DNA of 37,045 nt from Bacteroidales bacterium. GTDB lineage: Bacteria > Bacteroidota > Bacteroidia > Bacteroidales > UBA932. Positions 4,370 to 34,587 of the stretch are shown here, piece after piece. Location of the stretch: positions 1 through 37,045 of the forward strand of contig JAFZIO010000021.1 of the NCBI GenBank assembly GCA_017554335.1, read 5' to 3'. The notes below the pieces were generated by a model. That model ran no database searches and was not told the origin of the DNA. It saw only the letters and a list, made by a program, of their open reading frames with translations. Each line of letters opens with the position of its first letter. Within the stretch, counting starts at the first letter, position 1. Made by a program: the position numbers and the translations under genes.

Positions 4370-4382
4370 ATCGTTTCCCGGT

Positions 4383-7142: not shown

Positions 7143-7162
7143 CTTCGGGTACATTTATAAGT

Positions 7163-9037
7163 TTACCAACCCGGATTTTGAGTCATTCCGTAGTTCTTGT
7201 TGATTTCAACTGCGGGAATAGGGGCAAGATACCATTTGGTGTCCCAGGTATTGTACCATACGCGGGGAGGATAAGCATCCTTGAGCTTGAACGTGAAGCT
7301 GGTGGCGTTCTTCTGCTTGTTACCGGTGACTTCCAGGGCTTTCAGCTTGGTGGTGAAAGCTTTGGTAAGTCCCCAGCGAACCATGTCGAACCAGCGTACT
7401 TCCTCGAAGCCGAACTCGAGGTCGCGCTCGAGGATGAGGGCCTCGCGGAACTGCTCCTTGTTCAGGCCTTCGGTTACGCCGGGCAGGCCTACGCGGGCGC
7501 GTACTGCGTTGATCCACTGGTAAGGCAGGTCGGAAGGACCGCCGTCGGCCTCGTTGTAAGCCTCGGCCGCGTTAAGCAGGACTTCCGCCAGACGCATGAG
7601 GCACCAGTGAGGAGGAACGTTGCGGTCGGCTTCGGTCTGGTAGATGAATTTCATCTGCAGGAAGCCGGTGTTGCCGTCCTGGAAGCTGGGGCTCTTTGCG
7701 TTCACGTAGTTAGGACCGACGTTGCCGTTCTTCCAGAGGTCTCCGGGAACGCAGAGGTTCTCGTAAAGACGGGGATCGCGGGTCTCCGTTGCGGTCGGCT
7801 TGCCGTCAACCAGCAGGTCGCCGTTGGCGTCGGGCATGAAGAAAGGTGCACGGTCGCCTCCCGGAGGGTTGCTCCAGTTGAAGTCCTCGGGGAACGGGGT
7901 GCCGTCGGCATAAGGGAAACGGTTGACCCAGTCGAGGGTGCCGCCGCATCCGAAGTCGTCCTGGAGGTCCATGTTCTTGTCATGGTAGGAGGTGCTGTTG
8001 CTCTTGCGCACGGAGATGAGGGTTTCCGTAGTACCGCGGTCACGGTAAGACTTGCGGTAGGCAAGACGGTAGTCGGCAGGGCGTACAACAGTAGCGCCGG
8101 TTGCGTCAACGCCGGTCGGAATTGCCTGAACGAGGGCGTAGTAGCCTTCGCTGTTCCATGCAGACATGAACTCGTTGGCAGCTGCCTTGGCTTTGTCCCA
8201 AAGGCCCTTGTCGTACTTCTCGCCGTAGCGGACGTACTTGCCCACGTTCTCCCAGTCGGAGGCTGAGCTGTGCCAGGGCGTGTCGGAGTTGAAGGTGGGA
8301 GATGCCGCAAAGCAGAGTATGCGGAGCTTGAGTCCCAGGGCTGCGGCTTTGGTCAGACGGCCGTCTTCTGACTTGCTGGCGATGTACCAGGGGAGGTCTG
8401 GAGCGGCTTCGTCGCAGAGCTGCACAATATAGTCGATGGTCTCCTTGAAGGTGTTCCTGGGGAAGTTCATCTCCTCATCGGTCTTGATGGAGTGGTCGAT
8501 GAGAGGGACGCCGCCCACGTAGCGGACCATGTTGGCGTAAGCGATGGCTATGATAAGCTTGGCTTCAGCCTTCTTGCGTGCGAGCTCGTAGGGCTCTGCA
8601 TTGGGGATGTTGTCCGCGTTCTCGAGGAAGAACCATGCGTAACGGATAGCAGTATAGTCTTTCTCGCTTCCGAAGCGATAGTTTTCTCCGCCTGCCGCGT
8701 CACCGGAAATGTTGGCTCCGAGTGCACCTGTGTAGTACAGGTCGTTGGGGCCGTCACCTTCCGTATGCTTGTTGGAGACGAAGTGGTCGGTAATGGATTC
8801 TACTATATCCTTGCCCATCTTGGAGTCGAAATCGGAGATAAGACCGTAGGGCAGGTAGTAATACGCCGAAGCAAGCACCTTGTCGGAATCCTTGAGGGAG
8901 GCGAACAGGGTGTCGATTGTTGCGCCGGCGGTCTCGGGAGCCTTGCTCAGGCCCTCGTCGCCGAGTTTGAGGCTTTCACAAGCGGCCAGGCCCGCGATAA
9001 GCAGGGCGACGGTCAGTATATTGAATAACTTTTTCAT
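7163..9037 (-). CDS. SusD/RagB-family glycan-binding lipoprotein (SusD1)
   Basis: A 624-residue SusD-like lipoprotein with a signal ending in GLAAC (Cys20). It would partner SusC1 to bind glycan at the cell surface. Family features are the AEAKLIIAIAYANMVRYVGGVPL TPR helix, the LMRLAEVLLNAAEAYNEADGG helix, the INAVRARVGLPGVTE loop, and the ERDLEFGFEEVRWFDMVRWG C-terminal helix followed by YLAPIPAVEINKNYGMTQNPGW. It is longer than SusD2 and only distantly similar to it, so the two pairs are not a recent duplication. It starts 12 bases after susC1. Confidence 0.95.
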   Translation of the reverse strand: MKKLFNILTVALLIAGLAACESLKLGDEGLSKAPETAGATIDTLFASLKDSDKVLASAYYYLPYGLISDFDSKMGKDIVESITDHFVSNKHTEGDGPNDLYYTGALGANISGDAAGGENYRFGSEKDYTAIRYAWFFLENADNIPNAEPYELARKKAEAKLIIAIAYANMVRYVGGVPLIDHSIKTDEEMNFPRNTFKETIDYIVQLCDEAAPDLPWYIASKSEDGRLTKAAALGLKLRILCFAASPTFNSDTPWHSSASDWENVGKYVRYGEKYDKGLWDKAKAAANEFMSAWNSEGYYALVQAIPTGVDATGATVVRPADYRLAYRKSYRDRGTTETLISVRKSNSTSYHDKNMDLQDDFGCGGTLDWVNRFPYADGTPFPEDFNWSNPPGGDRAPFFMPDANGDLLVDGKPTATETRDPRLYENLCVPGDLWKNGNVGPNYVNAKSPSFQDGNTGFLQMKFIYQTEADRNVPPHWCLMRLAEVLLNAAEAYNEADGGPSDLPYQWINAVRARVGLPGVTEGLNKEQFREALILERDLEFGFEEVRWFDMVRWGLTKAFTTKLKALEVTGNKQKNATSFTFKLKDAYPPRVWYNTWDTKWYLAPIPAVEINKNYGMTQNPGW

Positions 9038-9049
9038 GTTCAGCCTGTT

Positions 9050-12000
9050 TTAGAAGTTGATGTTGAGGGCCAGGTTGTAGGTCTTCACGAGCGGGTAGGT
9101 ACCGTCGGAGTCGCTGGACTTGGCTTCAGGATCCTGGAGGGTCATCTTGGAGAAGGTCAGCATGTTGTAGCCGGTGAACATGATGCCCACGCTGCCTATG
9201 CCGAGCTTGTCGAAGAACTTGTTCTTGGAGAAGGTGTAGCCGAAGCTTGCGCTCTTGAGACGCAGGTAGCTGGCGTCCACGACCCACAGGGTGGAATCCT
9301 CGGAGTTCCAGGGATAGTTTGTCTTGGTGAACCGGGGCAGTGTGCCGTCTTCACGTCCGGGAGCCCAGGGGTTGTCGTTGTCTATCCAGCTGTTCTCCGC
9401 GAACATCTGGAGCAGTCCACGGTGACCGGAGTTGGTGAACGGGATACGGTAGTCGGCGTTCCACACACGGTTCACGTTGGTTGCCGCAACCCAGTTCAAC
9501 TGCAGGTTGAAGCCCTTCCATCCGAATTTCCAGTTGGAACCGAAAATGTACTCGGGACGGTCGGGATAACCGGAATACATCTTGTCCAGGCCGTCGACCT
9601 TGCCGTCTGGAACGGGGTTGCCGTTCTCGTCCAGGGCACCGCCTATATCGGCATACATACAGTCGCCGGGATATACGGTAGTTGCCGGCTGGGGCAGGTC
9701 GGGGTTGAGGCGCTGCACACCGTTCTCGTCGGTATAGAAGTCGGACTTCTGGTACAGACGAACGAACTGGTAGAGCAGGTGACGGTTGGTAGGACCGCCG
9801 GTCTGGTTCTGATAAGGCATAATGGACGCAACTTCGTCCATGAAGACGATCTTGTTGCGGGCGAAGGTCACGTTGGCGTTGAGGTCATAGGTGAAGTCGC
9901 CGATATGGTCGCGCCAGCCGATTTCAACTTCGTAACCCTTGTTGTCAACCTCACCCCTGTTCATGTTCTGGGGAGTGAAAGCGATTACGCCAGGGAGGGA
10001 GTTGGGCTTCACGAGAATGCCGGAGCGGTGCTCGTAGAAGATATCGCCGCCGAAGTGCAGCCTCTTCTTGAACAGCTCGAAGTCGAGACCGATGTTGGCC
10101 TTGAGAGCGGTTTCCCAGGTCACGCCTTCGTTGCCGGGAGTGCCGAGCTCATAGCGGGGGACGCCGCCGGTGCTGGTGCTGCCGAAGTAATATGAGCCGG
10201 CCTCGTTCCAGGTACCCTGCATGTACATGAATCGGGTGGAAGTTCCGAGGTCGTTACCTACCTTACCGAGGGAAGCACGGAGCTTGAGGTAATCTACCCA
10301 GTTGACTTTCTTCATCCAGGGCTCTTCGGAAATAACCCAACCGAGGGAGATGGAAGGGAAGAGACCGTAACGGGTCTTGCCCGGGGCGAAGTTTTCGGAG
10401 CCGTTGTAACCGGCGCTTATATCAACGAGGTACTTGTCCTTGTATCCGTAAGTTGCACGGGCAACCCAGCCCACGTATCCGCGGGGCAGCCACTCGTACT
10501 TGGACGGATAATAGTCGCGGCTCTGGTTGTACAGCAAGAGGCCGCTCACGGCGTGCTTGCCTGCGAACCTGCGGCTGTAGTCGATACGTCCTTCCAGATA
10601 CCAGCTCTTGTCGTCGTCGGTGCTGGGATCGCTCCAGTGGATAGGAGCTTCGCTGGAAGAAATGATGTAGACGTAGGTCTTGTCGAAGTCGGGGTCGCTG
10701 ATAGCCAGGCCGGAATCGTCGTTCCAGGAGGCGTATTCAACGGTCTGGTGCAGGCCGGAACCTCCGGTACGCTTCTTCTTCATGGACATTGAAGTATCAT
10801 AACTTCCCTTGATGCCCGCGCTGAGTCCTTCAGTAATGAAGTCCAGGCGCTGGGTGAGGGTGAGGTCCATGCCGAGGGTGGTCTTGTACTTGTTGGTGTA
10901 ACCGGTCATGTAGTAGTATTCCCAACCGTTCCACTTGGTAAGGCCGGAAGGCAGTGCGTTGGTGGAAACGCTGGTCACAGGCATTCCGTTAAGCACGCCG
11001 GGGCTTCCTACAGGGTGAGCCCAGAGCATGGTGAGGGTCCAGATGTTGTCCCTGTCGGTATAAGGCTCCTGGGTATTGCCGATAACGCCGCTGATGTTGA
11101 ACTTCATGTCGGTGGTTTCCGTGAGCTTGAAGTCCAGGTTGGCGCGGTAGTTATAACGGTTGTATGAGTAGTTGTTGTTGTAGTCCACACCCGGGATGCG
11201 CTTCAACAGACCGTCCTGGTACATGAAGCCCATGGATACGAAGTAACGTACCTTGTCGGAACCGCCGGAGATGTTCACGTTGTTCTTGGTCTGGAGGAAG
11301 GCCTTGCGGAACATTTCCTCATTCCAGTTGGTGCTGGCGAACATGATGGGGTCTGAATTGGTACGGTAGGCCTCGATTGCCTCGGGAGTGAAGTAGAGGC
11401 CTTTGTCTTCCTTGCCGTCGTTCCACTGGTACACGTTGTAGTAACGTGCGAAGTCGTAACCGGAACTCTGCTTGATGTAAGACATAGGCATCTGGAAACC
11501 GGTGATGGAGCTTGCGGAAATCTTCGGCTTGCCTGCATCGCCTCGTTTGGTGGTCACGATGATGACGCCGTTAGCGCCTCGCACACCGAACACTGCGGTA
11601 GATGCAGCATCCTTCAGGATGGACAGGTTCTCGATTTCGTTCGGGTCCACGGTATTGAGCGGACGCTCTACACCATCGACGAGGATGAGAGGGGTTGAAG
11701 CACTTTCGCTCAGGGAGCTGACGCCTCGGATGTAGATCTTGGCGTAGTCTTCACCGGGCTGGCCGGTCTCCTGGATAGTGGAGACACCGGGCATCTGGCC
11801 CGCGAGCACGTTGGTTACGTCGGCTACAGGCGCCTTCACGAGGGCCTTGGAGTCGATTGTGGTCAGAGCACCGGTGACGGTAGCTTTCTTCTGGGTACCG
11901 TAAGCAACCACGACGGTCGCCTCCAGGGACTCGGAATCTTCGTCAAGGATGATAACCAGGTCGCGCTGCTTGCCGACTTTCACCTCTTTGGCGACGTAGC

Positions 12001-12256
12001 CGAGCGAAGCTGCAACCAGTACGGCGTTTTCGTCCGGAACCACGAGGGAGAATTCTCCGTCCAGTCCAGTGGCGACGCCGGTGGTCGTTCCCTTGATGGT
12101 AACGCCCGCACCGATGACCGGCAGCGACTGGTTGTCAAGCACTTTGCCCTTGACCGTAAAGCTCTTGGACTGCGCAAAAGCGCCTCCGCCGGAAGGGCAC
12201 AGTACCAGACAGACCATTGCGGCCAGCCATAAGAATCGTACTGCTTTTAGTTTCAT
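9050..12256 (-). CDS. SusC/RagA-family TonB-dependent transporter (SusC1)
   Basis: A 1068-residue full-length SusC. Order of parts: signal peptide 1-29 (ending GGGAFAQ), carboxypeptidase-regulatory-like beta-sandwich about 32-105 (VKGKVLDNQSLPVIGAGV, TTTGVATGLDGEFSL), TonB-box-like segment ATVVVAYGTQKK about 113-124, plug about 125-239 (LILVDGVERPLNTVDPNEIE, LKDAASTAVFGVRGANGVI, TTKRG), and then the barrel ending in a YNLALNINF strand. It is the energised outer-membrane importer for oligosaccharides released at the surface. A 42-base AT-rich gap separates it from the GH18 gene; no TAnnTTTG box or hairpin is seen there, so read-through from the enzyme genes is likely. Confidence 0.97.
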   Translation of the reverse strand: MKLKAVRFLWLAAMVCLVLCPSGGGAFAQSKSFTVKGKVLDNQSLPVIGAGVTIKGTTTGVATGLDGEFSLVVPDENAVLVAASLGYVAKEVKVGKQRDLVIILDEDSESLEATVVVAYGTQKKATVTGALTTIDSKALVKAPVADVTNVLAGQMPGVSTIQETGQPGEDYAKIYIRGVSSLSESASTPLILVDGVERPLNTVDPNEIENLSILKDAASTAVFGVRGANGVIIVTTKRGDAGKPKISASSITGFQMPMSYIKQSSGYDFARYYNVYQWNDGKEDKGLYFTPEAIEAYRTNSDPIMFASTNWNEEMFRKAFLQTKNNVNISGGSDKVRYFVSMGFMYQDGLLKRIPGVDYNNNYSYNRYNYRANLDFKLTETTDMKFNISGVIGNTQEPYTDRDNIWTLTMLWAHPVGSPGVLNGMPVTSVSTNALPSGLTKWNGWEYYYMTGYTNKYKTTLGMDLTLTQRLDFITEGLSAGIKGSYDTSMSMKKKRTGGSGLHQTVEYASWNDDSGLAISDPDFDKTYVYIISSSEAPIHWSDPSTDDDKSWYLEGRIDYSRRFAGKHAVSGLLLYNQSRDYYPSKYEWLPRGYVGWVARATYGYKDKYLVDISAGYNGSENFAPGKTRYGLFPSISLGWVISEEPWMKKVNWVDYLKLRASLGKVGNDLGTSTRFMYMQGTWNEAGSYYFGSTSTGGVPRYELGTPGNEGVTWETALKANIGLDFELFKKRLHFGGDIFYEHRSGILVKPNSLPGVIAFTPQNMNRGEVDNKGYEVEIGWRDHIGDFTYDLNANVTFARNKIVFMDEVASIMPYQNQTGGPTNRHLLYQFVRLYQKSDFYTDENGVQRLNPDLPQPATTVYPGDCMYADIGGALDENGNPVPDGKVDGLDKMYSGYPDRPEYIFGSNWKFGWKGFNLQLNWVAATNVNRVWNADYRIPFTNSGHRGLLQMFAENSWIDNDNPWAPGREDGTLPRFTKTNYPWNSEDSTLWVVDASYLRLKSASFGYTFSKNKFFDKLGIGSVGIMFTGYNMLTFSKMTLQDPEAKSSDSDGTYPLVKTYNLALNINF

Positions 12257-12298: not shown

Positions 12299-13534
12299 TT
12301 ATTGTATCACTGATTCCTTTCCGTAGAGGGCCTTCACGACGGCTTTTATGAGGGAATTGTTGCTGTCGTCGTAACGGTACTCCCAGAACATGGCTCCCAG
12401 CTCTCCGCCGGCCTTTATGTATTCGCCTTTGGCGGTAACCGATTCAACGTCGTCGTAGGACAGTACGTTTACTCCGGCTCCATCCACGAGGTAAGGGACC
12501 TTGGAGGTCGGTTCCCATCTGCGGGAGACGGGGCGCACCAGAGCCTTGCCGCGGTAGGTGCCCTTGTTGAGTATGTCGGCTATTTCGTAGAACTTAACTG
12601 AATACTCGAATATCTTCTCGGAGTCCGTGGGGTTCTTCTTGGACTTGCCGTAGCAGGGGATGCCCATGACCTGGCGGTTCTTGGGCACGCCGCCCTTCAC
12701 GTGGGCCTCTATGCTCTCGTCCCAGCTGCGCTGGTTGAACATGGCGCTCTTGTGCAGGGGAGAATTGTGCCCGTTGGGTGCGGCTCCCATGTCGTAGGTC
12801 ATCACGTTCACGTAGTCCAGATACTTCATCGCAGTACCCCAGTCCACGTACTTGGCGCTGGAAGAAGATGCGAAGGAGATTATCTTGCTGGTGCCGAGGG
12901 TGTCGCGCAACTCCTTGAGTACCAGGTTGAAGTTCTTGGTGTCGTTGGGGTCGCATCCGGTCTCGTTGTCGGCGCTCTGGGTAGGATACTCCCAGTCTAT
13001 GTCTACGCCGTCCAGCTTGAACTTCTTGATGTTCTCATGAACGGAATGGCAGAACTCGGTGCGCTTCTTGGGATCCTTGGCCATCATGGAGAAGCCGTCG
13101 GCATGGCCGCCCCAGCCGCCTATCATCACCATAACCTTCAGCTTGGGGTTCTTCTCCTTGAGGGCGATTACCTTGCTGATGGGAACCTGCTTGGACTCGG
13201 TAATCACTATGCCGCCGTCGCCGGTCTTGGGGTTCTTGAAACGGCCGTGGGCATAGTTGATGTGGGTTACGATGGTGGGATCGGGGAGCTTCTCGTTATA
13301 CTCCGTAAAGTAAGACAGCACTATGGGGGTCTGTCCTATATCCGTACAAAGGGTGCCGGAAGTGGCCTGGCCGCCTCCGTTGTTGTCGCCTCCGCCTCCG
13401 TTTCCATTGTCGCCTGTCTCGTCAACCGCAGTTTTCTCGATGGGCGGCGGGACTTCTATCTCGTTGCCGCCTCCGCAGGAGCAGATAACGGCCATGAGGG
13501 ACGCGCAAAGCAATGATGTAAGCTTCTTTATCAT
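12299..13534 (-). CDS. GH18 lipoprotein glycosidase (chitinase or endo-N-acetylglucosaminidase type)
   Basis: A 411-residue protein. The start at 13534 forms an ATGA overlap with the GH20 stop, pointing to translational coupling, and puts a lipobox (VICSC) at the N-terminus. A Gly/Asn-rich tether of about 30 residues follows. The GH18 barrel has the INYAHGRF strand, the MIGGWGG substrate-binding strand (about 136-143) and the catalytic DGVDIDWE motif (D175, D178, D180, E182), where the last Glu is the proton donor. The VMTYDM strand completes the active site. All catalytic residues are present, so it should be an active retaining enzyme cutting beta-1,4 bonds next to GlcNAc. Chitinase and ENGase activities cannot be told apart here; the INYA/MTYD pattern leans toward chitinase-like. 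It is probably surface- or periplasm-anchored by lipid. Confidence 0.92.
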   Translation of the reverse strand: MIKKLTSLLCASLMAVICSCGGGNEIEVPPPIEKTAVDETGDNGNGGGGDNNGGGQATSGTLCTDIGQTPIVLSYFTEYNEKLPDPTIVTHINYAHGRFKNPKTGDGGIVITESKQVPISKVIALKEKNPKLKVMVMIGGWGGHADGFSMMAKDPKKRTEFCHSVHENIKKFKLDGVDIDWEYPTQSADNETGCDPNDTKNFNLVLKELRDTLGTSKIISFASSSSAKYVDWGTAMKYLDYVNVMTYDMGAAPNGHNSPLHKSAMFNQRSWDESIEAHVKGGVPKNRQVMGIPCYGKSKKNPTDSEKIFEYSVKFYEIADILNKGTYRGKALVRPVSRRWEPTSKVPYLVDGAGVNVLSYDDVESVTAKGEYIKAGGELGAMFWEYRYDDSNNSLIKAVVKALYGKESVIQ

Positions 13535-15672
13535 AGTGTAACAGGTCTTAAAGTATGCCATTCAGGGTCTCCGGGGCGCAATTCCATCACGTCGGTCTTG
13601 TTGCGCAGGTCGTTCCAGCCTCCCACGATGTTGAAGATGAATACGGCCTTGACCTTGTGTATGCCTTTCTCCAGCACGAGTTCCCTGTCGTGGCGGGAAT
13701 AGCGCTTGACAGGCTCGCGTGAGTTGTCTATAATGAGTTTGCCGTCGATGTAAACCGCGTCGGTGTCGGAAGAGAAGCGGTAGACGCCGGTCTTGCGCAC
13801 CTTGAAGCAGCATTCCGCCTCAGCTGCGTAGAAACGGGTGCTGTCCGGCAGGTTGCGGTCGTATGCTTCCAGGGCCACCAGCTCGCGCAGGCCTGCAAGC
13901 TCCACGTCCCTCCATTCGCGTCCCTTCAGATCGTCTATGTTGAGGAACTTGCCGTCGGTGCGGCGTGCCCGAACGCCTTCGAAAATCTCACTCTCCGGCA
14001 GGGCGGGCATGGGGGCCATCCTGGTCACGTTGATGGTGCGGACGGTGCTCAGGCGGCCGTAGGAGGTCACGGAAGCGGTCTTCACGACGCAGCTTTCGCT
14101 GATCTCGATGGGCTTGGTGTATTCGATTGATGCCGCGGTGGGCTCGCTGCCGTCCAGGGTGTAGACTATCTTCTCCGGGCGGGTGGTGGTGAGCTCGATG
14201 CTGGTCTTGTCTTCGAAGGCCAGGTTGTCGCAGGAGCCGCCGGGCTGCTCGGGAATGGGCACGTGGTAGTTGACTCCGCGCTCGTCCAGCTTCTGGCAGG
14301 CGATGTCTACGCGGCGGTTGAAGCTATCCCAGTCCTTGCGGTCCAGCTGCGTCCAGGCAATCTCCGCCAGGGCGAACGCCCTCGGGAAGAGCATGTAGTC
14401 GCGGCGGTCGTTGTCGTAGATGTATTCAGACCAGTTGTTGCACTGCACGCCCTTTACGTGGTGCCCCTTGCCGTTGCTTTTGAGCACTGCGGGCACGGGG
14501 TCGTAGGAGTAAACCTTCTTCAGGGTGGTGTATTTGCCGATGGTGGCAGGTTCCACCTTGGGGTCGCCCTGGAAGTGGTCGAAATACATTCCGTCGGTGC
14601 CGGGGGTCATTATGACGTCGTGCTCCTCATTTGCGGCCTTGATGCCTCCGCTCTCTCCGCGCCAGCTCATGACGGTGGCGCCGGGGGTGAGGCCTCCTTC
14701 GAGTATCTCGTCCCAGCCGATCAGCTTGCGGCCGTACTTGGCCAGGATGCCTTCCATGCGGCCTACGGCGTAGCTCTGCAGCTTCTCCACGGCTGTGCCG
14801 TTTTCATCGGACACCAGTCCGAGCTCCTTGATGCGGGCCTGGCAGAGGGGGCAGGTCTCCCAGCGGTTCTTGCGGCACTCGTCGCCGCCGATGTGTATGT
14901 ACTCGCTGGGGAAGAGCTCCACCACCTCGGCAATCACGTCGTCTAGGAACTCGAAGGTGGATTCCTTGCCGGGGCAGAGGGAGATGTCGGGGGTGCCCCA
15001 GGTGTAGAAGGTCCTCACTTCCTCGCCCGTGCAGCTGAGCCACGGGTACGCGCGTATGGCGGAAATGGCGTGGCCGGGCATCTCTATCTCTGGCACCACG
15101 GTCACGAAGCGCTCTGCGGCGTATGCCACCACTTCGCGAATCTCTTCCTGGGTGTAGTAGCCGCCGTACACCTTTCCGTCAAACTCGGTGCGCCATGCTC
15201 CCACCTCCGTGAGACGGGGATATTTCTTGATTTCTATGCGCCATCCCTGGTCGTCCGTGAGGTGCCAGTGCATGCGGTTTATCTTGTACCGGGACAGGAT
15301 GTCGATTTCTTTCTTCACCTCCTCTACCGGCAGAAAATGGCGGCAGGGGTCTATGTGAAAGCCTCGGTAGGGGAACCTCGGGTAGTCGACTATCTTCACG
15401 CAGGGCACTTTGCCGTCCGGCTGTACCAGCTGGTCCAGGGTCTGCTTTGCGTAGAAGATACCGGCGTCGTCGGAAGCGACTATGTCTATCCTGTTCTTCT
15501 TTACGGTCAGGGTGTAACCTTCGGGCGCAATGCCTGAATCGGGATTTACGGTGCAGTGGATGCGGTTCTTGCACCCCTTCGTATTAAAAAACCCGTCCTG
15601 AACCTGTACGGATACGGGTTCAGGAATGATGTTGATGATAGCTGTGGCTAGCAATGTCAGCAGTAGTTTCAT
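13531..15672 (-). CDS. GH20 beta-N-acetylhexosaminidase with C-terminal chitobiase-like and PA14-like domains
   Basis: A 713-residue exo-enzyme that removes terminal beta-linked GlcNAc (or GalNAc) from oligosaccharides. After a short signal-like N-terminus comes the GH20b domain (about 15-95). The catalytic barrel carries RGFHIDPCRHF (103-113), HLTDDQGWR (137-145), PEIEMPGHA (194-202) and the catalytic HIGGDE pair D264-E265. About residues 490-560 resemble the chitobiase C-terminal Ig domain (VYTLDGSEPT). Residues about 575-700 look like a PA14 carbohydrate-binding module (FKVRKTGVYRFSSDTDAVYIDGK). It directly follows the GH2-phosphatase gene: its ATG ends at 15670 and the upstream stop codon begins at 15673. 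The stop overlaps the GH18 start. Likely periplasmic. Confidence 0.95.
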   Translation of the reverse strand: MKLLLTLLATAIINIIPEPVSVQVQDGFFNTKGCKNRIHCTVNPDSGIAPEGYTLTVKKNRIDIVASDDAGIFYAKQTLDQLVQPDGKVPCVKIVDYPRFPYRGFHIDPCRHFLPVEEVKKEIDILSRYKINRMHWHLTDDQGWRIEIKKYPRLTEVGAWRTEFDGKVYGGYYTQEEIREVVAYAAERFVTVVPEIEMPGHAISAIRAYPWLSCTGEEVRTFYTWGTPDISLCPGKESTFEFLDDVIAEVVELFPSEYIHIGGDECRKNRWETCPLCQARIKELGLVSDENGTAVEKLQSYAVGRMEGILAKYGRKLIGWDEILEGGLTPGATVMSWRGESGGIKAANEEHDVIMTPGTDGMYFDHFQGDPKVEPATIGKYTTLKKVYSYDPVPAVLKSNGKGHHVKGVQCNNWSEYIYDNDRRDYMLFPRAFALAEIAWTQLDRKDWDSFNRRVDIACQKLDERGVNYHVPIPEQPGGSCDNLAFEDKTSIELTTTRPEKIVYTLDGSEPTAASIEYTKPIEISESCVVKTASVTSYGRLSTVRTINVTRMAPMPALPESEIFEGVRARRTDGKFLNIDDLKGREWRDVELAGLRELVALEAYDRNLPDSTRFYAAEAECCFKVRKTGVYRFSSDTDAVYIDGKLIIDNSREPVKRYSRHDRELVLEKGIHKVKAVFIFNIVGGWNDLRNKTDVMELRPGDPEWHTLRPVTL

Positions 15673-18600
15673 CTATTTAATATATTTACGTACAATCTGG
15701 CCGATCTCGGCGTTTTCATGAATCCCGGCGAATTCCTCCGCGTGGGGGCCGTAAGCGTATACCGGAACGAGGATTCCGTTGTGCCCCTTGGTGGAGAAGT
15801 TTACCTGTACCAGATGTTTCTCCAGATCACCCTTCAGCAGGGTGAGGCCTCCGCAGGCGTGGTCGGCCGTCACTACCACCAGGGTCTGGCCGTCTTTCTC
15901 CGCCCACTTGAGCACTTCCCCTATGGTGCGGTCGAAGTCGAAGAGTTCCTCAACCACCGGCCCTATCTTGTTCCTGTGGCCGTAGTCGTCTATCTGGGAG
16001 CCTTCCACCATGAGGAAGAAGCCCTTGGGGTTGTCCAGCATTTCTATTGCCTTCATGGTGCACTCCTGCAGCACGGGGCCGCGCTCGGTGCACGGGGGCA
16101 GGTCCAGGGGGCCGAAGAGGCCGAGGAACTTGTCTCCCTTGGCGCCGCGAACGTCTTCCAGCTTGTCCACGAAGGTGTAGCCCTTGGCCTGCATCTCCTC
16201 CACGAGGTTGCGGCCGTCGGAGCGGGAGGTCCAGAACTGGAGGCCGCCGCCGGCTATGAAGTCTACGCCGGAGTCGATGTACTGGGCGGCGAGGCCTTCC
16301 TCGTCACGCACGGTGGGCGAATGGCCGCAGAAGTCTTCCGGAGTGGCGTCGTTGATGCGGCACACCACGGCTACGCCGGTCTTCTTGCCCTTCTTCTGGG
16401 CGGTCTTGAGTACGGACTCGGCAGGGTTGCCGTCCTTGTCCAGGCCGATGTAGTGATACCTGGTCTTCTCTCCGATCGCCAAGGCGGTGCCGCCGGCGCA
16501 GGAGTCGGTGACGAGGGCGTCATATGCATGGGTGCGGGAGGTGCCGAAGTAAGGCATCTGCTCCATGTTGAGCTTGCCGCCGTTGACCACCCAGCCGCAG
16601 CTTACCTGCTCGAAGCCCATTCCGTCGCCTATCATGAAGATGACGTTCTTGACTTTCTTTCCTTTGGGCTGGCTGACGCTCACCACGTCGTAGGTCTCAT
16701 CCTTGGAGTATACGTCGTCGCGGCTGAAGTTGTAAGTCGCGAAGGCGGAACGGTCGCGGCGGAGCGAGTCGGGCGAGCTGACTATGGCGGCGCTGGCGTT
16801 CCAGCCCTCCAGGGACACGCTCACGGGACCGCAGGCCTTGGGCACGCGGCAGGTAACGATACGGCTCTCGCCGGGGCAGAGGGTGAAGAAGTTGTCGGAC
16901 CACATGACTCCGGGAACGAGCTCGCCGTCGGTGGTCTTTGCCTTAAGGATGTTCTGGTAAGCAATGGTCTCCGATTCGTTGACCAGCTGTACCTTGAAGC
17001 CCTTGTCCGTCTTTGCGGCGTGCATCTTCACGCTGGTCGCAGGCAGGGCGCTCACGAACGACAGGTCCGCAAACTTCTCTATGGGCAGGCCCCACCAGTC
17101 GGCCTTCTTCCAGACGTAGCTGTTGTACTCAGCGGGAATGCAGTAGAAGTTGTCTGCAACCGGCTGGCCGTCTTCGTCGAATGCTTTGAGCGAGATGAAG
17201 CAGGGACCCTGGATGTCTTCGAATACCTTGCGGGGGCTGCGGCGGCGGAACTTTGCAAGTTTCTGCTCATGGCGCACAAGCTTGCCCTGTGCGTCGTACA
17301 CGTCCATGACTGCCGTGCCCTCGAAGCCGGAAACGGTCTCGTCTACGGTGTACACGCAGCGGTCTTTGAAGTTGTAAACCAGCTGGACAGGGTTGCAGGC
17401 CTTCTTGGTGCCGTAGTATGCGGCGGTAGGGACCAGGTACCAGTCGTAAAGCTGCCAGTAGAGGGAAGGCCATGCCGAATTGAGCATCCACTGGACAATG
17501 CCGGTGGCCTTGGGAACGTTGCAGCGGAAGGCCTCGTACATGCCGCGCGTACCATCATAATCAATAGCGTGCGCCTTGCGCATGAAGTCTTCAATTCCGG
17601 TGGGGGCTCCGTATTCTCCGGTAACGGCGTTCATGATGAATGCCGTATTGTTCATATGGGAACTGGAGGTCGTGCAGTGGTAGTCCCACATCTGGTCGAG
17701 CGGCCAGAGGTGGTCTTCTCCCACCATGCGGCGCATGGATTCAAGCTGGGGGATGTTGGTGCCGATACCGGTCTCTGTGTTGAAACCGAAGGCGCCGCCG
17801 CGCTTGGTGTCTATGTACCAGTAGTCAGGACCTACGTATTCGTACGGGCCTTCCATCTTCATTCCGGAGGGGCCGCCGTACTTGCTGCTCATTCCGCTGG
17901 CGGAGCAGACGTAAGGACGGTATTCCAGTTTGTCGTAGATTTTCATGTACTCGGCTTCCAGGCGGTCATTGGGCACGCGGTCGCTGCCGGTAAGCCAGCA
18001 AATCACCGAAGGGTGGTTGCGCAGGCGCACGATCTGGTCGTGGAAATAACGGATTGCAAGAGCTTCGGTTTCGGGCTCATGTATGCATCCGACGCCTTTC
18101 TTCTCCTTGTAGCCGCAGTAGTTTTCCCATTCCCACTGGCAGCTGAAGCCGGCCATGGCGAGAAGTCCCAGCTCGTCGCAGAGGTCGTAGACGGTATCGT
18201 CCTTGCCCCAGATATTCTCGAAGCGTATGCTGTTGAGGTTCATGTCGCATACGAACTCCACCTGGGTGCGGATGCTCCCGGGAGTGTCCTGCATGAAGAT
18301 GTCGTCGGTCCAGCCTGCGGACTTGATGAGCATCTCGCGGCCGTTGAGTATGAATAGACGGTGTCCGCTCTTGTCTACGATGCCCTTGATGTCCCTGAGG
18401 CCGAAGCGTACCTTCCTGCTGTGGGAGACTTTGTCGCTGCTGCCGGGGATGAAGGATACCTGGAGGTTGTACAGCTCCGGACGGCCGACGTCGCGGCTCC
18501 ACCAGATACGTGGGTGCCTGACCTGATGGTGAATCTTCACCTCTTTGGACTCGCCTGCCGCCAGGCTGACCTCCTCGCGGAAGCCGCCGCCTTCGTAGGC

Positions 18601-19266
18601 TCCCTGCAGCACGCCGCTGATGGGCTTGCCGGAACGGTTGACGAGGGTGGTGGTGACGTCGATGGCCGCCTCCTTGAGGGTCTCGACGTTCACCTCAGGC
18701 TTCACGAACACGTCCTGCACCTGCACGTCGGGAGTGGATATAAGCTCCACCTTGCGCAGTATGCCCATGGTCTCGTCCACGGGACGCGGGTTCCAGTCTA
18801 CGTAACCGTGGTTGAGCGACTTGGCGGGGGCCTTGTAGACGGTCACCTGCAGCTTGTTCTGCTTTTTCTTGCCCACGAGGGAGGTTACGTCGAATTCCCT
18901 TACGCAGAAGGGGCCTACGGTGGTGTCGGCGCTGGCGATCAGGGTGCCGTTGACCCTTATGTCGGCCGAATAGCCCAGGCTCTCGAACCTCAGGATGTGG
19001 TGCAGGCCCTTGGCGGCCTCGAAGGTGGTGGAGAACACCCACGGGCTGTCGAAGAGGCTCTTGTCTATGTTCTTGTAACGGTCGGCGTCGAGCACGTCGG
19101 GTCCGAACACGCCGGCTTCGTTGAGGGCCCCGGCAACGGTGCAGGGCACCACGACGTCGTAGGAGCGCTTGTCTCCCTGACGCTGCATTTTCCAGTTGTT
19201 AAGCTCTGTTGCGTTTGCGCTTACAGCGGCGCAGAGGACGCAGAGGAGGATAAAAAGTCTTTTCAT
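15673..19266 (-). CDS. Fusion of GH2 exo-beta-D-glucosaminidase-like enzyme with PhoA-type alkaline phosphatase
   Basis: A 1197-residue exported protein (signal 1-19) with two complete enzyme halves. Residues 20-860 are GH2: jelly-roll sugar-binding domain, Ig domain, TIM barrel and C-terminal Ig domains. The acid/base motif reads WLTGSD (D429), not the usual NE, and the nucleophile motif reads FNTETG (E498). GSD in place of NE is the mark of the exo-beta-glucosaminidase (CsxA-like) branch. Residues about 870-1197 are alkaline phosphatase: metal ligand D881 (GDGMG), nucleophile S922 (TDSCAGGTA), E1088 and D1093 (VEGSQIDDYGH), H1097, D1135-H1136 (TADH) and H1162 (KGHNG). Every key residue of both halves is present. 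The reading frame is continuous, with a short QPKGKKVK linker near 866-873. It lies between the ROK kinase (9-base gap) and GH20. It would release terminal GlcN and phosphate in the periplasm. Confidence 0.93.
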   Translation of the reverse strand: MKRLFILLCVLCAAVSANATELNNWKMQRQGDKRSYDVVVPCTVAGALNEAGVFGPDVLDADRYKNIDKSLFDSPWVFSTTFEAAKGLHHILRFESLGYSADIRVNGTLIASADTTVGPFCVREFDVTSLVGKKKQNKLQVTVYKAPAKSLNHGYVDWNPRPVDETMGILRKVELISTPDVQVQDVFVKPEVNVETLKEAAIDVTTTLVNRSGKPISGVLQGAYEGGGFREEVSLAAGESKEVKIHHQVRHPRIWWSRDVGRPELYNLQVSFIPGSSDKVSHSRKVRFGLRDIKGIVDKSGHRLFILNGREMLIKSAGWTDDIFMQDTPGSIRTQVEFVCDMNLNSIRFENIWGKDDTVYDLCDELGLLAMAGFSCQWEWENYCGYKEKKGVGCIHEPETEALAIRYFHDQIVRLRNHPSVICWLTGSDRVPNDRLEAEYMKIYDKLEYRPYVCSASGMSSKYGGPSGMKMEGPYEYVGPDYWYIDTKRGGAFGFNTETGIGTNIPQLESMRRMVGEDHLWPLDQMWDYHCTTSSSHMNNTAFIMNAVTGEYGAPTGIEDFMRKAHAIDYDGTRGMYEAFRCNVPKATGIVQWMLNSAWPSLYWQLYDWYLVPTAAYYGTKKACNPVQLVYNFKDRCVYTVDETVSGFEGTAVMDVYDAQGKLVRHEQKLAKFRRRSPRKVFEDIQGPCFISLKAFDEDGQPVADNFYCIPAEYNSYVWKKADWWGLPIEKFADLSFVSALPATSVKMHAAKTDKGFKVQLVNESETIAYQNILKAKTTDGELVPGVMWSDNFFTLCPGESRIVTCRVPKACGPVSVSLEGWNASAAIVSSPDSLRRDRSAFATYNFSRDDVYSKDETYDVVSVSQPKGKKVKNVIFMIGDGMGFEQVSCGWVVNGGKLNMEQMPYFGTSRTHAYDALVTDSCAGGTALAIGEKTRYHYIGLDKDGNPAESVLKTAQKKGKKTGVAVVCRINDATPEDFCGHSPTVRDEEGLAAQYIDSGVDFIAGGGLQFWTSRSDGRNLVEEMQAKGYTFVDKLEDVRGAKGDKFLGLFGPLDLPPCTERGPVLQECTMKAIEMLDNPKGFFLMVEGSQIDDYGHRNKIGPVVEELFDFDRTIGEVLKWAEKDGQTLVVVTADHACGGLTLLKGDLEKHLVQVNFSTKGHNGILVPVYAYGPHAEEFAGIHENAEIGQIVRKYIK

Positions 19267-19275
19267 GAGTTTGGC

Positions 19276-20097
19276 TTATAAGAGTGAAGCTCCGAGGAGG
19301 GCGACATCCTCCTGGGGCATGGCTTTGATTACCAGTCTATCCAGCGCATGACCATAGGGATAGCGCTTGCGGAGGGCGCGCCACATGGCCTTTTCGAAAT
19401 ACGGGTACGTGTTTGCGATTCCTCCGCCGAACACTATGCAGCCGGGATCGTAGGAATACATAACCAGAGAGAGAAGCTCCCCGAGATGCCTTCCGAACTC
19501 GTCGAAGAAAGCTATTGCGTCATGGTCGCCGTTGTCTGCGGCCTTGCATGCCTCGCGGGGGTTCCAGCCGCGGCTCCCGAAGAACTGCTTGGAGCAGAAC
19601 GATTCGAAGTCCTTGCCGTTGTAGGGCACGCTGCCTATCTCTCCAGCGCCGCAGTTGTCGCCGCACATCAGCTTGCCGCCGGCCACGATACCCACTCCCG
19701 TTCCTGTGCCCAGGGTGACTCCGACCACGACCTGATACTCTTCTTCGAGCCTTGCGGCCGCTCCGAGGGCGTAGCAGTTGGCGTCGTTGTTTACGTTGAC
19801 GGTGATGCCGAAGCGCTTCTCCAGCATGTCCTTCAGGGGGACTTTAGTCCACGATTTGATGTTTGTGGCGTTGTAGACTATGCCTTTTGCTACGTCAACA
19901 AGGGTGGGCACGCCAATGCCTATGCTGTCAACCTTAGGTGTGATTATCTCCTCAATCTGCTCGATGAGGTAGTCAATGGTTTCCTGAAGGCTTGCGTCTT
20001 TCTGGAAAGATGGCACTCGGTTTAACTTGACAATCTCAGTTCCCTCCACAAGGCCGAGACTGATAGTGGTGCCGCCGATGTCGATTCCTAGTAACAT
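19276..20097 (-). CDS. ROK-family sugar kinase (GlcNAc- or glucokinase-like)
   Basis: A 273-residue cytoplasmic kinase, expected to phosphorylate the hexose or amino sugar released by the operon enzymes. It has the phosphate-binding GIDIGGTTISLG motif (4-15), the catalytic Asp in NNDANCYALG (D105), the GTLGTGTGVGIV loop (about 127-138) and the ROK glutamate in GAGEIG (E153). The usual CxCGxxGCxE zinc motif is absent: after GAGEIGSVPYNG the sequence runs GKDFESFC, a variant seen in some ROK subfamilies. Length is slightly below the usual 290-320. It is the first gene of the minus-strand locus and lies just behind the putative operator. Substrate is inferred from context: GlcNAc or GlcN is most likely, glucose possible. 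Confidence 0.9.
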   Translation of the reverse strand: MLLGIDIGGTTISLGLVEGTEIVKLNRVPSFQKDASLQETIDYLIEQIEEIITPKVDSIGIGVPTLVDVAKGIVYNATNIKSWTKVPLKDMLEKRFGITVNVNNDANCYALGAAARLEEEYQVVVGVTLGTGTGVGIVAGGKLMCGDNCGAGEIGSVPYNGKDFESFCSKQFFGSRGWNPREACKAADNGDHDAIAFFDEFGRHLGELLSLVMYSYDPGCIVFGGGIANTYPYFEKAMWRALRKRYPYGHALDRLVIKAMPQEDVALLGASLL

Positions 20098-20172: not shown

Positions 20173-21339
20173 TTATGCTCCCAATTTCCGCAATTCTCGC
20201 GATCTGAATTCAGACGGGGTACAGCCCTTTATGGCCTGGAAACGCCTGGAGATGCTCTTTGTGTCAGGTTCATCCAGCCTTGCGGCTATATTCGCAATGG
20301 AGTCTTTACTGGACAGCAGAAGCTCTGCGAAGCGGTTCATGCGCATTTCGCTGATGTATTTGTAGATGGTCGTGCCGGTCACCTTCAGGAAACGCTGTTC
20401 CAGGAGCCTTCGGGAAAGCGGAACCTGCTGCAGAACGTCGTCCACGAGGATTTTCCTGTCTATATTCGCGCTTATGAACTGCAGCGCGGTAAGGATGGCG
20501 GTGTCCTTGGTTGCGAACACGTTGGAAGACATGCGGCTGACTATGTTCTTGGGTTTGAGCACCACGTCTTCGCCGACGAAATCATGCTCGCGCACCATAC
20601 GCTCGGCCAGCTTTGCCGCCTCATATCCGCCGCGCTCGATGTCTATGTTGACGGAAGACAGGGCGGGGCTGGACAGGTTGCAGAGTATCTCGTCGTTGTC
20701 TACGCCCATGATTGCCACTTCCGACGGAATCTTGAGGCCGCAGGAAGTGCATGCCTGCAGCAGTATACTGCCCTGGTTGTCGTCGCAGGCCATAATCGCT
20801 ATGGGCTTTGGCAGACCCTTAAGCCATTCTGAGAGCATGGGCAGGTTGTATGCCCACAGACTGTCTATCTGCTGCAAGTTGTAGTGGAACATGTTGTCCC
20901 CGTAGCCCGCCATCTCTATGCGTTTTTGGAAGCCCTTCATACGCTCGTCGGACCAGCATACGTTGTTGTAACCGAAATACGCGAAATTCTGGAATCCGCG
21001 GGACAGGAAACGCCGCGCCACCATGCCTCCGGTGAGGTCGTAGTCCGCCGTTATGTTGGGTATGCCTTCGAATTTGACGATGTAGTCCTGGGCCATGGCT
21101 ACTATGCCCTCTTTCTTGAAGAGGCTGATGTCGTCGTTAGGCTCGAACTGTCCTATCACCACGTCAGCCTTCCAATGCCTGGCCCATGCAACCACGCCCT
21201 TTATTCCCACCTGCTTTTTGTATGCCGGAGGCATGCGGCAGACGACCCATGGTTCCGTTTCTTCGGCGTACTGCAGCACGCCCCGGAGCAGCCTGTATGC
21301 GAACTGTTCAGTAAAGTCGGTAATAAAGACCAAGCGCAT
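20173..21339 (-). CDS. XylR-type AraC-family transcriptional regulator with LacI-like sugar-sensor domain
   Basis: A 388-residue DNA-binding protein. Residues 1 to about 270 are a periplasmic-binding-protein-like sensor (FITDFTEQFAYRLLRGVLQYAEE, IMACDDNQGSILLQACTSCG, IMGVDNDEILCNLSSPALSSV), as in E. coli XylR. About 285-388 are the AraC double helix-turn-helix (LVDDVLQQVPLSRRLLEQRF, then IANIAARLDEPDTKSISRRFQAIKG and TPSEFRSREL). No transmembrane segment is present, so it senses a cytoplasmic ligand, probably the sugar entering this pathway. It begins only 3 bases after the histidine phosphatase stop, so the two are probably on one transcript. It is the only regulator in view beside the locus; no hybrid two-component system or ECF sigma gene is present. 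Confidence 0.93.
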   Translation of the reverse strand: MRLVFITDFTEQFAYRLLRGVLQYAEETEPWVVCRMPPAYKKQVGIKGVVAWARHWKADVVIGQFEPNDDISLFKKEGIVAMAQDYIVKFEGIPNITADYDLTGGMVARRFLSRGFQNFAYFGYNNVCWSDERMKGFQKRIEMAGYGDNMFHYNLQQIDSLWAYNLPMLSEWLKGLPKPIAIMACDDNQGSILLQACTSCGLKIPSEVAIMGVDNDEILCNLSSPALSSVNIDIERGGYEAAKLAERMVREHDFVGEDVVLKPKNIVSRMSSNVFATKDTAILTALQFISANIDRKILVDDVLQQVPLSRRLLEQRFLKVTGTTIYKYISEMRMNRFAELLLSSKDSIANIAARLDEPDTKSISRRFQAIKGCTPSEFRSRELRKLGA

Positions 21340-21342
21340 GAT

Positions 21343-22617
21343 TTACAGATATTTAACGTCGTTTCGAAGTATAGATTCCCTAACATCTTCCCAACGGTAG
21401 TAGGGCCCTCCCTCGAGGGTGATAAGGGAGGCTTCCTGCTCGTTGAGGTAGAATTTCACCAGCACGTCGCCTTTGCGGCCGCGGTACAGGACCATCTGGA
21501 GGTTGCAGGCGAAGGGGGTGCGGAGCACTGCGGGCCAGTCCCGGCAACTGCGGGTGTCGAGCCTTTCGGCTACCCCTTTGACGCCTATGCGTGAGGAGAT
21601 GGCAAGCAGCTGATATTCATGGCCGTAGCGCAGGTCGGCGGCACAGTCGCCGGTGGCTATTGCGGCGTCGGCTTTGGAGATAATGTCGTCTACCAGAAGC
21701 TGCACCGGTTCCATACGTTTGTCGCCGTATTCGCGGGAGTTGCACTGGCGCAGATAGAGGTTCATGCCTATGCGCTGCGAGTACCAGTAGAGGTCGTCTT
21801 CGGTAAAGATGCGCAGCAGCGTGTCGTCCAGGTCGAAGGCTCCGCTTACCATGGCTATGTCGAAGGTGTCCTGCATCAGTGCAACCGGATCTCCTATGTT
21901 CTGCCTGGCCCTTGAAGGGTCCTTGTAGATGCGGGCCATGAAAGCGGCCGTATCAGGGACGTGGGCCTTCTTATGCTCTTCCAGGCTCGCCAGAACCATC
22001 TGCTTTATGTCCTTTGTGTCTTCCGTGCTGCAGATCAGCATTATTTTTTCGCCGGAATCCCAGGTCATTTCCAGCCTGGGGTCGAGGGCGCGCAATTCCG
22101 AGGTTGCGGCGGCCATACTTACAAGGCATCTTGGCGCTACGCTGGACAAAGCACGCACTTTGCGGCTGCCTTTCCGGAATACCTGGGGGAACTTTTTGTA
22201 CATGCGCGCCGCTATCTGTCGGTGCTCTATTGCGCCCCTTGGAGTGAGGCGTCCGTTCATGCCGTCGTGCAGTTGTGCAAGCAGGATTACCCTTTGCCTG
22301 GCGGCTTCTCCTTCAGGGGTGAGGTTGCCGTCTTCCGCCGGTTTGTTCCAGCGTTCAAGCAGGCTGGCGTAGTTGTCGCGGGTCCATTCGCTGCGGGATC
22401 CGTGGCGGCCGTAGTGGCTGATATAGAATGGCTTATAGCCTGCGGGAACCGGAGTCTCGGGGCCTTTGTGATACTCGTATGGGGCTGTGTTTACTCCTGC
22501 GCGGTGAAGGTTTTCGTGGATGAGCGCGACTATCTCCGGGTTTTTACTGTCCTGGGCGTTGACGTTTAACGCTCCGCACAGGAGAAACAAGAGGGATATT
22601 GCGAAGCAGTTCCTCAT
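21343..22617 (-). CDS. Histidine-type acid phosphatase (phytase/MINPP-like), exported
   Basis: About 424 residues from the ATG at 22617, which begins a signal peptide ending near NVNAQ; an alternative ATG at 22629 adds four residues. The phosphate-binding RHGSR motif is at 71-75 (H72 is the expected phosphohistidine). The proton-donor motif is GHE at 332-334, in the ADLRYGHEYQLLAI context typical of clade-2 histidine phosphatases, the group with phytases, glucose-1-phosphatase and MINPP. The product is probably periplasmic or lumenal, releasing phosphate from a sugar phosphate or inositol phosphate; the true substrate is unknown. It sits with the regulator of the glycan locus, next to an operon that carries a second phosphatase domain. 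A FDLDDTLL string at 261-268 resembles a HAD motif by chance. Confidence 0.88.
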   Translation of the reverse strand: MRNCFAISLLFLLCGALNVNAQDSKNPEIVALIHENLHRAGVNTAPYEYHKGPETPVPAGYKPFYISHYGRHGSRSEWTRDNYASLLERWNKPAEDGNLTPEGEAARQRVILLAQLHDGMNGRLTPRGAIEHRQIAARMYKKFPQVFRKGSRKVRALSSVAPRCLVSMAAATSELRALDPRLEMTWDSGEKIMLICSTEDTKDIKQMVLASLEEHKKAHVPDTAAFMARIYKDPSRARQNIGDPVALMQDTFDIAMVSGAFDLDDTLLRIFTEDDLYWYSQRIGMNLYLRQCNSREYGDKRMEPVQLLVDDIISKADAAIATGDCAADLRYGHEYQLLAISSRIGVKGVAERLDTRSCRDWPAVLRTPFACNLQMVLYRGRKGDVLVKFYLNEQEASLITLEGGPYYRWEDVRESILRNDVKYL

Positions 22618-22643
22618 AGGCCATTGCATTTTAGTGTCAATGG

Positions 22644-32684: not shown

Positions 32685-32696
32685 AAACTTTATATT

Positions 32697-33929: not shown

Positions 33930-33949
33930 TATAATTAATAGATGCCTCA

Positions 33950-34048
33950 GCGGGGCAGGTCCAATTTTACCCCTTGGACCTGCCCCGCAAATCGTTATCT
34001 CACGCAATCCAGTGCTGCAGGTCCCCCGCATAAAATTGGACCTGCCCC
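33950..34048. repeat. REP/BIME-like repeat, copy A (99 bp)
   Basis: This differs from the copy at 35538-35636 at one base only (A at 33963, G there). The ends are a perfect 18-bp inverted repeat: 33952-33969 against 34031-34048, reading GGGGCAGGTCCAATTTTA and its complement. Inside, GGGGCAGGTCC (33952-33962) also pairs with GGACCTGCCCC (33976-33986), and GCAGGTCC (34018-34025) with GGACCTGC (34038-34045), so two hairpins can form. Confidence 0.95.
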
Positions 34049-34184: not shown

Positions 34185-34586
34185 ATGAAAAAATTTCTTG
34201 AAGTATTGATTGATGATGCTGGTGAAATGCATCTCAGTTCTGATTGCCATTTCGTGAAGACCACAGAACTTGCTAAACGAAGTGAGGTCTCAAATTTACT
34301 GGATAAAGCTGCGATAAAGTCGCTGATCAAGGAACTCTGGGAGAAAAAGGACCCTGAGGTTTCGTTTGCTATTCGTGTGATGAGCACGGCAGAAATGCTG
34401 GCCAATCCTGACCCATATGGTCAAGCCGAAGAATTCTGGTTTTATATGATGCATGATTTTATTCCAATGTTGGAAAAGTATGCGGAAAGGCTAAAAGTAG
34501 AATATGGTTTTGATCCAAGTTCAGTTAAAAAGCCTGTCATTTACTTTAATCCTGAGTTCTTCGGTCCAAGTCGAACAATTAATTAA
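34185..34586 (+). CDS. Cassette protein of unknown function, paired with the transposase
   Basis: A 133-residue, probably soluble protein I do not recognise. The start at 34185 is chosen over 34167 because the -7 box ends at 34169. It looks mixed alpha/beta: an N-terminal strand with acidic residues (LEVLIDDAGEMHL), a helical middle (NLLDKAAIKSLIKELWEKKD, MSTAEMLANPDPYGQAEEFWFYMMHDFIPMLEKYAERL) and a C-terminal strand near KPVIYFNPEFFG. No catalytic motif, HTH or membrane segment is evident. It is separated from the transposase by one base and shares its AT-rich composition, so the two are probably co-translated and arrived together. Possible roles are a regulator or partner of the transposase, or unrelated cargo. 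Confidence 0.75.
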   Translation: MKKFLEVLIDDAGEMHLSSDCHFVKTTELAKRSEVSNLLDKAAIKSLIKELWEKKDPEVSFAIRVMSTAEMLANPDPYGQAEEFWFYMMHDFIPMLEKYAERLKVEYGFDPSSVKKPVIYFNPEFFGPSRTIN

Positions 34587-34587
34587 C

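Follow-up and report, generated by a model that had tools for sequence, protein, structure and literature searches.

A predicted exo-beta-D-glucosaminidase fused to an alkaline phosphatase in a phosphatase-equipped amino-sugar gene cluster of Bacteroidales

The window analysed here is a 37,045-nucleotide stretch of DNA from a Bacteroidales bacterium of the UBA932 lineage (contig JAFZIO010000021.1 of assembly GCA_017554335.1), and it comprises the entire contig C15 of a 2.35 Mb genome. On its minus strand, an open reading frame (ORF) of 1197 residues with an ATG start (15673-19266) joins a family 2 glycoside hydrolase (GH2) to an alkaline phosphatase (AP) in one frame. The fusion protein is a CsxA-type exo-beta-D-glucosaminidase with the signature of subfamily GH2_16 followed by a PhoA-type AP; both domains are complete, and both activities are predicted from sequence. 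The fusion points to a coupling of phosphate and amino-sugar breakdown.

Domains and catalytic residues of the fusion protein

Pfam placed GH2 N2 at residues 25-153 of the fusion protein, GH2 at 181-291, TIM at 336-429 and Ig_GlcNase at 724-823, and in the C-terminal half Alk_phosphatase at 873-1141 and Metalloenzyme at 1067-1178. The best PDB match for residues 41-830 was the exo-beta-D-glucosaminidase 2vzs (CsxA; 3.7e-109), which we take to come from Amycolatopsis orientalis, and for residues 858-1194 it was the alkaline phosphatase 2w5v (4.9e-59), which, like 2iuc, is presumably the TAB5 alkaline phosphatase. An earlier reading, made from the sequence alone (the sequence-only reading), had claimed that a glucosaminidase-type GH2 and a complete AP are joined in one polypeptide, and the Pfam and PDB matches confirmed it. 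From the N terminus, the protein consists of a signal peptide recognised by eye (residues 1-19; 19210-19266, minus strand, as are the parts that follow), the GH2 part defined by Pfam and the PDB match (residues 25-823; 16798-19194), a linker (residues 831-869; 16660-16776) with the seam at about residues 830-838, and the AP part defined by Pfam and the PDB alignment (residues 870-1197; 15676-16659).

In the passages of PMC12243196 that define GH2_16, a Ser-Asp motif, with Asp as the acid/base, replaces Asn-Glu, and a Glu replaces the active-site His. The window protein carries the acid/base D429, the nucleophile E498 and the signature residues S428 and E350; these four residues were kept in 84 of 84 aligned GH2 sequences (rows), and E498 and E350 align with E541 and E394 of CsxA. 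The nucleophile Ser of PhoA-type APs (S922) and the Asp/Glu/His metal-ligand set were all present in the AP part. Every catalytic residue named in the sequence-only reading was found at its position (D429, E498, D881, S922, E1088, D1093, H1097, D1135, H1136 and H1162). D429, E498, D881 and S922 were invariant in all 13 fused rows, the window included, E1088, D1093, H1097, D1135 and H1136 in 11 of the 11 whose contig reaches them, and H1162 in 10 of the 10 whose contig extends that far.

The window protein shares with CsxA homology over residues 41-830, the Asp acid/base, the Glu nucleophile, the Ser-Asp motif and the Glu near C2; however, the 1032-residue CsxA chain matches the GH2 part only, whereas the window protein adds a C-terminal AP and belongs to a SusC/D locus. 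With the AP of 2iuc/2w5v it shares membership of the PhoA superfamily, homology across the whole AP part, and the aligned nucleophile Ser and metal ligands listed above, but that enzyme stands alone, and a Trp follows its Asp ligand where the window protein has Asp1094. The fusion protein is probably exported, and a periplasmic location appears likelier than an extracellular one, because the signal peptide, judged by eye, is of the signal peptidase I type and lacks a lipobox. The earlier description of the protein as secreted is therefore better worded as exported.

Distribution and origin of the fused state

A scan of genome contigs gave 47 relatives, mostly uncultured Bacteroidales where named. 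GH2 and AP were fused in 10 of them (L005-L010, L012-L014 and L022), AP was the next gene downstream of GH2 in nine (L011, L015-L021 and L028) and lay upstream in six (L023, L024, L025, L033, L037 and L049), and no AP was visible in 22, several of these on short contigs. Among the 25 AP-bearing loci, 16 have a record title that names a ruminant host. Two further fused loci, L074 and L080, were among the family-search matches listed (249 genomes), and the same fusion is present in at least 12 loci besides the window. At least one AP match was found in 50 of the 61 genomes of a genus sample, the own genome having two AP genes, and in five (G000, G207, G852, G870 and G880) the frame that holds an AP match exceeds 1000 residues, although three of these frames equal those of L005, L008 and L014 in length and may represent the same genomes. 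Order and class samples gave matches in 28 of 295 and seven of 295 genomes, respectively (own genome included); with cut-offs of 1e-100 and 1e-130 and at most two candidates scored per genome, none of the matches listed outside the own genome spans both domains.

The other fused loci rule out the fusion as a rarity of a single genome. That the junction of the domains is an artefact of assembly or binning, as might arise in a fragmented source genome (75 contigs, 87.57% complete), is a practically negligible explanation: the same junction in 12 further loci rules out misassembly there and answers the check for an assembly join proposed in the sequence-only reading, the genes between regulator and SusC come in the same order in L005, L006, L007, L008 and L010, and omega was low in both halves of the protein. 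Of the 41 loci of the GH2 clade, 35 have an AP either fused to the GH2 or elsewhere in its cluster (13 fused, 17 directly downstream and 5 upstream), and five of the six AP-less clade loci are cut by a contig end. The view that the whole branch is fixed for the fusion was rejected, because separate genes are at least as common as fused ones within the clade; the fused build is an optional state, since many homologues are separate genes. The finding that close homologues always keep the domains in separate genes, which the sequence-only reading had named as grounds for abandoning the fusion, did not emerge in view of the 12 further fused loci, yet many homologues are indeed separate.

Separate APs begin with what by eye is a signal peptide of their own; behind it lies a stretch of the type ELDRDRSKYATYSFSDDDKY, with QPKGKKIKNVIFMIGDG some way after it. 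In the fused proteins a like stretch sits directly after the GH2 C terminus, and the signal peptide is gone. This match between the linker and the stretch behind the signal peptide of separate AP genes points to an origin in which two adjacent operon genes would have become one when the GH2 stop codon and the AP signal peptide were lost. In 17 of the 17 downstream loci, the GH2 and AP open frames, measured between stops, either overlap or are no more than 16 bases apart.

The fused state required five changes on the GH2 tree (84 rows), three of them forced by starred branches, and four changes, three forced, on the combined GH2 and AP tree (38 rows). Five changes, two forced, were needed on an AP tree of 41 rows, and four, three forced, on one of 49 rows. 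The GH2 tree left out L099, L111 and sequences below 440 residues (L049), and the larger AP tree left out four second APs (L023, L024, L025 and L037) and L120, which had no AP hit; the GH2 sequences of L023 and L024 are identical. A single clade for all 13 fused rows, and with it one origin of the fused state, was rejected by the approximately unbiased test (p-AU 2.6e-7), though some of the pattern can be accounted for by an older fusion that split. The fused rows fell into three groups, namely the window group, L014/L080 and L012/L013, and within the window group L022, L074 and L009 share an unresolved fork with L016, whose two genes are separate. These tree counts indicate that the fused state was gained or lost at least three times (with two changes forced on the smaller AP tree). 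Recurrent fusion is a simpler reading of these changes than fission, because the separate APs bear signal peptides.

The stand-alone AP of the own genome (L093:9323-10450, contig C38; 51% identity) and the upstream APs fell among the other APs on the 41-row AP tree. When 12 more stand-alone APs were added, giving 13 in total, the 36 cluster APs were split off by one branch (support 78/90, present in 82% of bootstrap trees), and on the 49-row tree the upstream APs formed a starred group of six. Because the cluster APs share one side of this branch, a single recruitment of AP into the cluster is likely, though not proven; several of the stand-alone rows are long-branched. The stand-alone AP of the own genome has a lipoprotein-like start by eye, and its stretch also holds SusC/D, DUF4832/DUF4874 proteins and one protein whose weak matches are SdiA-regulated/phytase-like. 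Selection on the two halves was compared in eight pairs of fused sequences (NG86), and omega was 0.030-0.072 for AP and 0.107-0.226 for GH2; in eight of eight pairs purifying selection acted more strongly on the AP half, and the values are rough because synonymous distances were often near or above 1. In six window-clade pairs, AP was 87-98% identical where GH2 was 71-91% identical.

Gene cluster and further phosphatases

The cluster runs on the minus strand. A domain scan identified a regulator with a periplasmic-binding-protein-like domain and an AraC helix-turn-helix (PBP-AraC; 20173-21339), followed by a ROK sugar kinase, glucokinase/GlcNAc kinase-like (GlcNAc, N-acetylglucosamine; 19276-20097). 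After the GH2-AP gene come a GH20 beta-N-acetylhexosaminidase (13531-15672; nearest PDB entry the beta-hexosaminidase 6q63) and a GH18 chitinase-type protein (12299-13561; nearest PDB entry the chitinase 5gzu, 3.6e-76), which has DGVDIDWE at residue 184 and, by eye, a lipobox-like start. The domain scan then gave a SusC-like TonB-dependent transporter (9050-12256), a SusD-like protein (7163-9037), a second SusC-like transporter (4383-7154), a second SusD-like protein (2669-4441) and a BACON-domain protein that possibly binds glycans at the surface (1161-2675). Two SusC and two SusD genes with GH18, GH20, GH2 and a PBP-AraC regulator are the make-up of a polysaccharide utilization locus (PUL). 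The chitin utilization locus of Flavobacterium johnsoniae likewise has SusC/D with GH18 and GH20 for chitin, and we know of no phosphatase or GH2 glucosaminidase in it. Across the 41 clade loci, AP was present in 35, ROK in 33, GH20 in 24, the histidine phosphatase in 19 and GH18 in 18, the misses including contig ends, and one or two further phosphatases accompany many of the clusters. Elsewhere in the window, ORFs of 830, 450 and 339 residues (30192-32684, plus strand; 32679-34031, minus strand; 34504-35523, plus strand) had no Pfam match at 0.001 and may include shadow ORFs.

The histidine acid phosphatase of the cluster (21343-22629, minus strand), encoded ahead of the regulator, carries a signal peptide by eye and the motifs RHGSR and GHE, and it matched PDB 7r5y at 7.1e-42 and the MINPP 4fdt at 3.6e-28. 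It had no Pfam or NCBIfam match at the first cut-offs; His_Phos_2 was weak on this ORF (0.017) and above cut-off in all three relatives scanned. RHGxR was present in 26 of the 26 homologous ORFs found, and the window form of the MINPP motif RHGxR(xP) is RHGSR without the final P. As given in the definition in PMC3969271, HAE is the proton-donor motif of MINPPs, and because GHE/GHD replaces it here the protein is classed as a MINPP-like histidine acid phosphatase. In the five sister loci L083-L087 this phosphatase is present and AP absent, and the homologue of the histidine phosphatase in L011 has a phytase-like C-terminal match.

A second kind of glycosidase-phosphatase fusion joins GH18 to a tyrosine-phosphatase-family domain. 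Both Pfam domains were found in the own genome (L140:10960-13110, contig C38), in L023 (4369-6591) and in L026 (5474-7609), and a copy in L037 is cut by the contig end. The GH18 and phosphatase P-loop active-site motifs were intact in all four aligned fusions of this kind. Those of L023, L026 and L037 occur in the sister group with AP upstream; in L025 the tyrosine-phosphatase-type gene is separate and adjoins a second AP of about 35% identity. The L023 protein had some match in 72 of 199 family genomes, and a full-length match in G000 and G084 only.

Possible function of the fusion

The explanation that we favour, and on which our confidence is evenly divided, is that the fusion protein would be a periplasmic exo-beta-D-glucosaminidase and alkaline phosphomonoesterase of a phosphatase-equipped chitin/chitosan-type PUL, with location and activities as predicted above. 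The surface GH18 would cut the polymer, SusC/D would import the oligosaccharides, GH20 would remove GlcNAc, and the GH2 half would remove non-reducing glucosamine (GlcN). Removal of phosphate monoesters on or with the oligosaccharides would fall to the AP half together with the histidine acid phosphatase, and the ROK kinase would phosphorylate the sugar after uptake. We infer both the order of these steps and that phosphate is part of the substrate; in the periplasm, where by eye we place it, the enzyme would meet oligosaccharides imported by SusC/D. That unrelated phosphatases have been joined to chitin-type glycosidases in two different builds, and that many of the clusters hold extra phosphatases, speaks for a functional tie of phosphate and amino sugar. 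The phosphate may be esterified to an amino-sugar glycan, or it may belong to fungal walls in which polyphosphate occurs alongside chitosan. Accounts of Mucoromycota, as distinct from rumen fungi, describe walls of chitin, chitosan and polyphosphate (PMC7307774) and a Mucor spore wall with 2.6% phosphate (PMC6433966).

A broader proposal, which we hold tentatively and at somewhat below even confidence, is that the locus would be of an undescribed kind, an amino-sugar PUL for phosphate-bearing chitin- or chitosan-like material into which unrelated phosphatases (PhoA-type AP, a second AP, the histidine acid phosphatase and the tyrosine-phosphatase fold) were repeatedly recruited, with two glycosidase fusions (GH2-AP and GH18-tyrosine phosphatase). 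Several observations weigh against the favoured explanation. The analysis identified no natural material in which phosphate is esterified to GlcN or chitin. GH2 stands without AP in the other 43 of the 84 tree rows, although the 17 order-search rows have less than about 1.6 kb of flanking sequence and others stop where their contig does; L088, inside the clade, lacks AP despite about 8.5 kb on each side, and in the fused L012 no other query gene appears within 23.5 kb. The co-location figures are raw counts from 41 clade loci that are related by descent. The own-genome GH18-phosphatase fusion has no SusC/D or chitin genes among the neighbours scanned, the histidine phosphatase is closest to inositol-phosphate enzymes and would suit phytate or general phosphate use, and the rough omega values come from eight of 78 possible pairs, five of which share the window.

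The main rival, a substantial possibility though not one that we regard as probable, is phosphorus scavenging, in which AP and the histidine acid phosphatase would harvest phosphate from co-eaten material such as fungal-wall polyphosphate, phytate or nucleotides; the phosphate would not be bonded to the sugar, and the fusion would only keep both enzymes co-expressed and together. Polyphosphate lies beside chitin and chitosan in Mucoromycota walls, the histidine phosphatase resembles MINPP, its homologue in L011 carries the phytase-like C-terminal match, and a SusC/D pair likewise accompanies the other AP of the own genome. PMC8115612 describes phosphate-induced SusCD-like systems of Flavobacterium (PusCD) that cluster with phosphatases, as in the window locus; however, PusCD is induced by phosphate starvation and is described there as distinct from carbohydrate-enzyme clusters, whereas the phosphatases of the window locus are fused to or mixed with glycosidases. 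Scavenging sits poorly with partner genes that are sugar genes and a neighbouring regulator that is a PBP-AraC protein, and it does not predict two unrelated phosphatase folds fused to two different chitin-type glycosidases. An AP that is useful in the cluster but linked to GH2 without function is improbable: little stands in the way of abutting operon genes, which therefore fuse now and then, and the close spacing of the frames in all 17 downstream loci and the repeated gain or loss of the fused state agree with neutral fusion, but the internal signal peptide was dropped at about the same place in the fused forms, and the fused state persists over the deep divergence of the window clade (GH2 71-91% identical).

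The sequence-only reading had taken the pairing of the two domains to suggest a substrate in which GlcN and phosphate occur together, including lipid A-like or wall-derived pieces, and had supposed that dephosphorylation would let sugar cleavage proceed. The pairing itself gained from the co-clustered APs, the second, unrelated phosphatase and the chitinase-phosphatase fusions, but lipid A as a target was not supported. AP would there dephosphorylate the GlcN disaccharide backbone of lipid A or of wall-derived GlcN phosphate, and GH2 would split the beta-1,6 link. The chemistry of a deacylated lipid A backbone is compatible with both enzymes, but the cluster enzymes are chitin-type (GH18 and GH20), and this target is very unlikely because the matching neighbours, a deacylase, a hydrolase for 3-deoxy-D-manno-octulosonic acid (Kdo), an amidase or a muramidase, were not recognised among the window genes scanned. 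Phosphorylated chito-oligosaccharides or a phosphate-rich fungal chitosan wall fit better as substrates than lipid A.

Searches of open papers, supplements aside, found no described fusion of a GH2 exo-beta-D-glucosaminidase to an alkaline phosphatase, no glycoside hydrolase fused to an alkaline phosphatase domain, and no GH18 chitinase-phosphatase fusion in the context of polysaccharide utilization; these searches were aimed at such fusions and, within that scope, are consistent with the sequence-only reading, to which no enzyme of this build was known. The word phosphatase is absent from the available main text of the GH2 subfamily paper (PMC12243196), which lists multimodularity in additional files. 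The parts of the protein are known, and the build and the phosphatase-loaded locus appear new. If the food is indeed chitin-like and phosphate-bearing, a natural phosphorylated or phosphate-complexed amino-sugar polymer would be regularly eaten in herbivore guts. Should the substrate prove to be a glycan of phosphorylated amino sugars or a fungal wall of chitosan and polyphosphate, the locus would reveal a nutrient and a phosphorus route there. Annotation of carbohydrate enzymes can overlook these because, to our knowledge, glycan loci are not as a rule taken to include phosphatases.

Other joined proteins were encountered in the scans. An AP of the same family likewise forms the C-terminal part of a longer protein in L145 (1358-3736) and L146 (2224-4335); the partner upstream of it shows no more than a short match to GDPD_2, over about 30 positions, whereas the partner in the window protein is a complete glycosidase. 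L119, the third long AP-containing ORF scanned, had no recognised partner domain. GH18 is joined to an alginate-lyase-family domain in L147 (2570-4765) and to a ThuA domain in L130 (289-2442), and a tyrosine-phosphatase-family domain is joined to a fimbrillin-like domain in L143 (1642-3783) and L144 (2419-4380).

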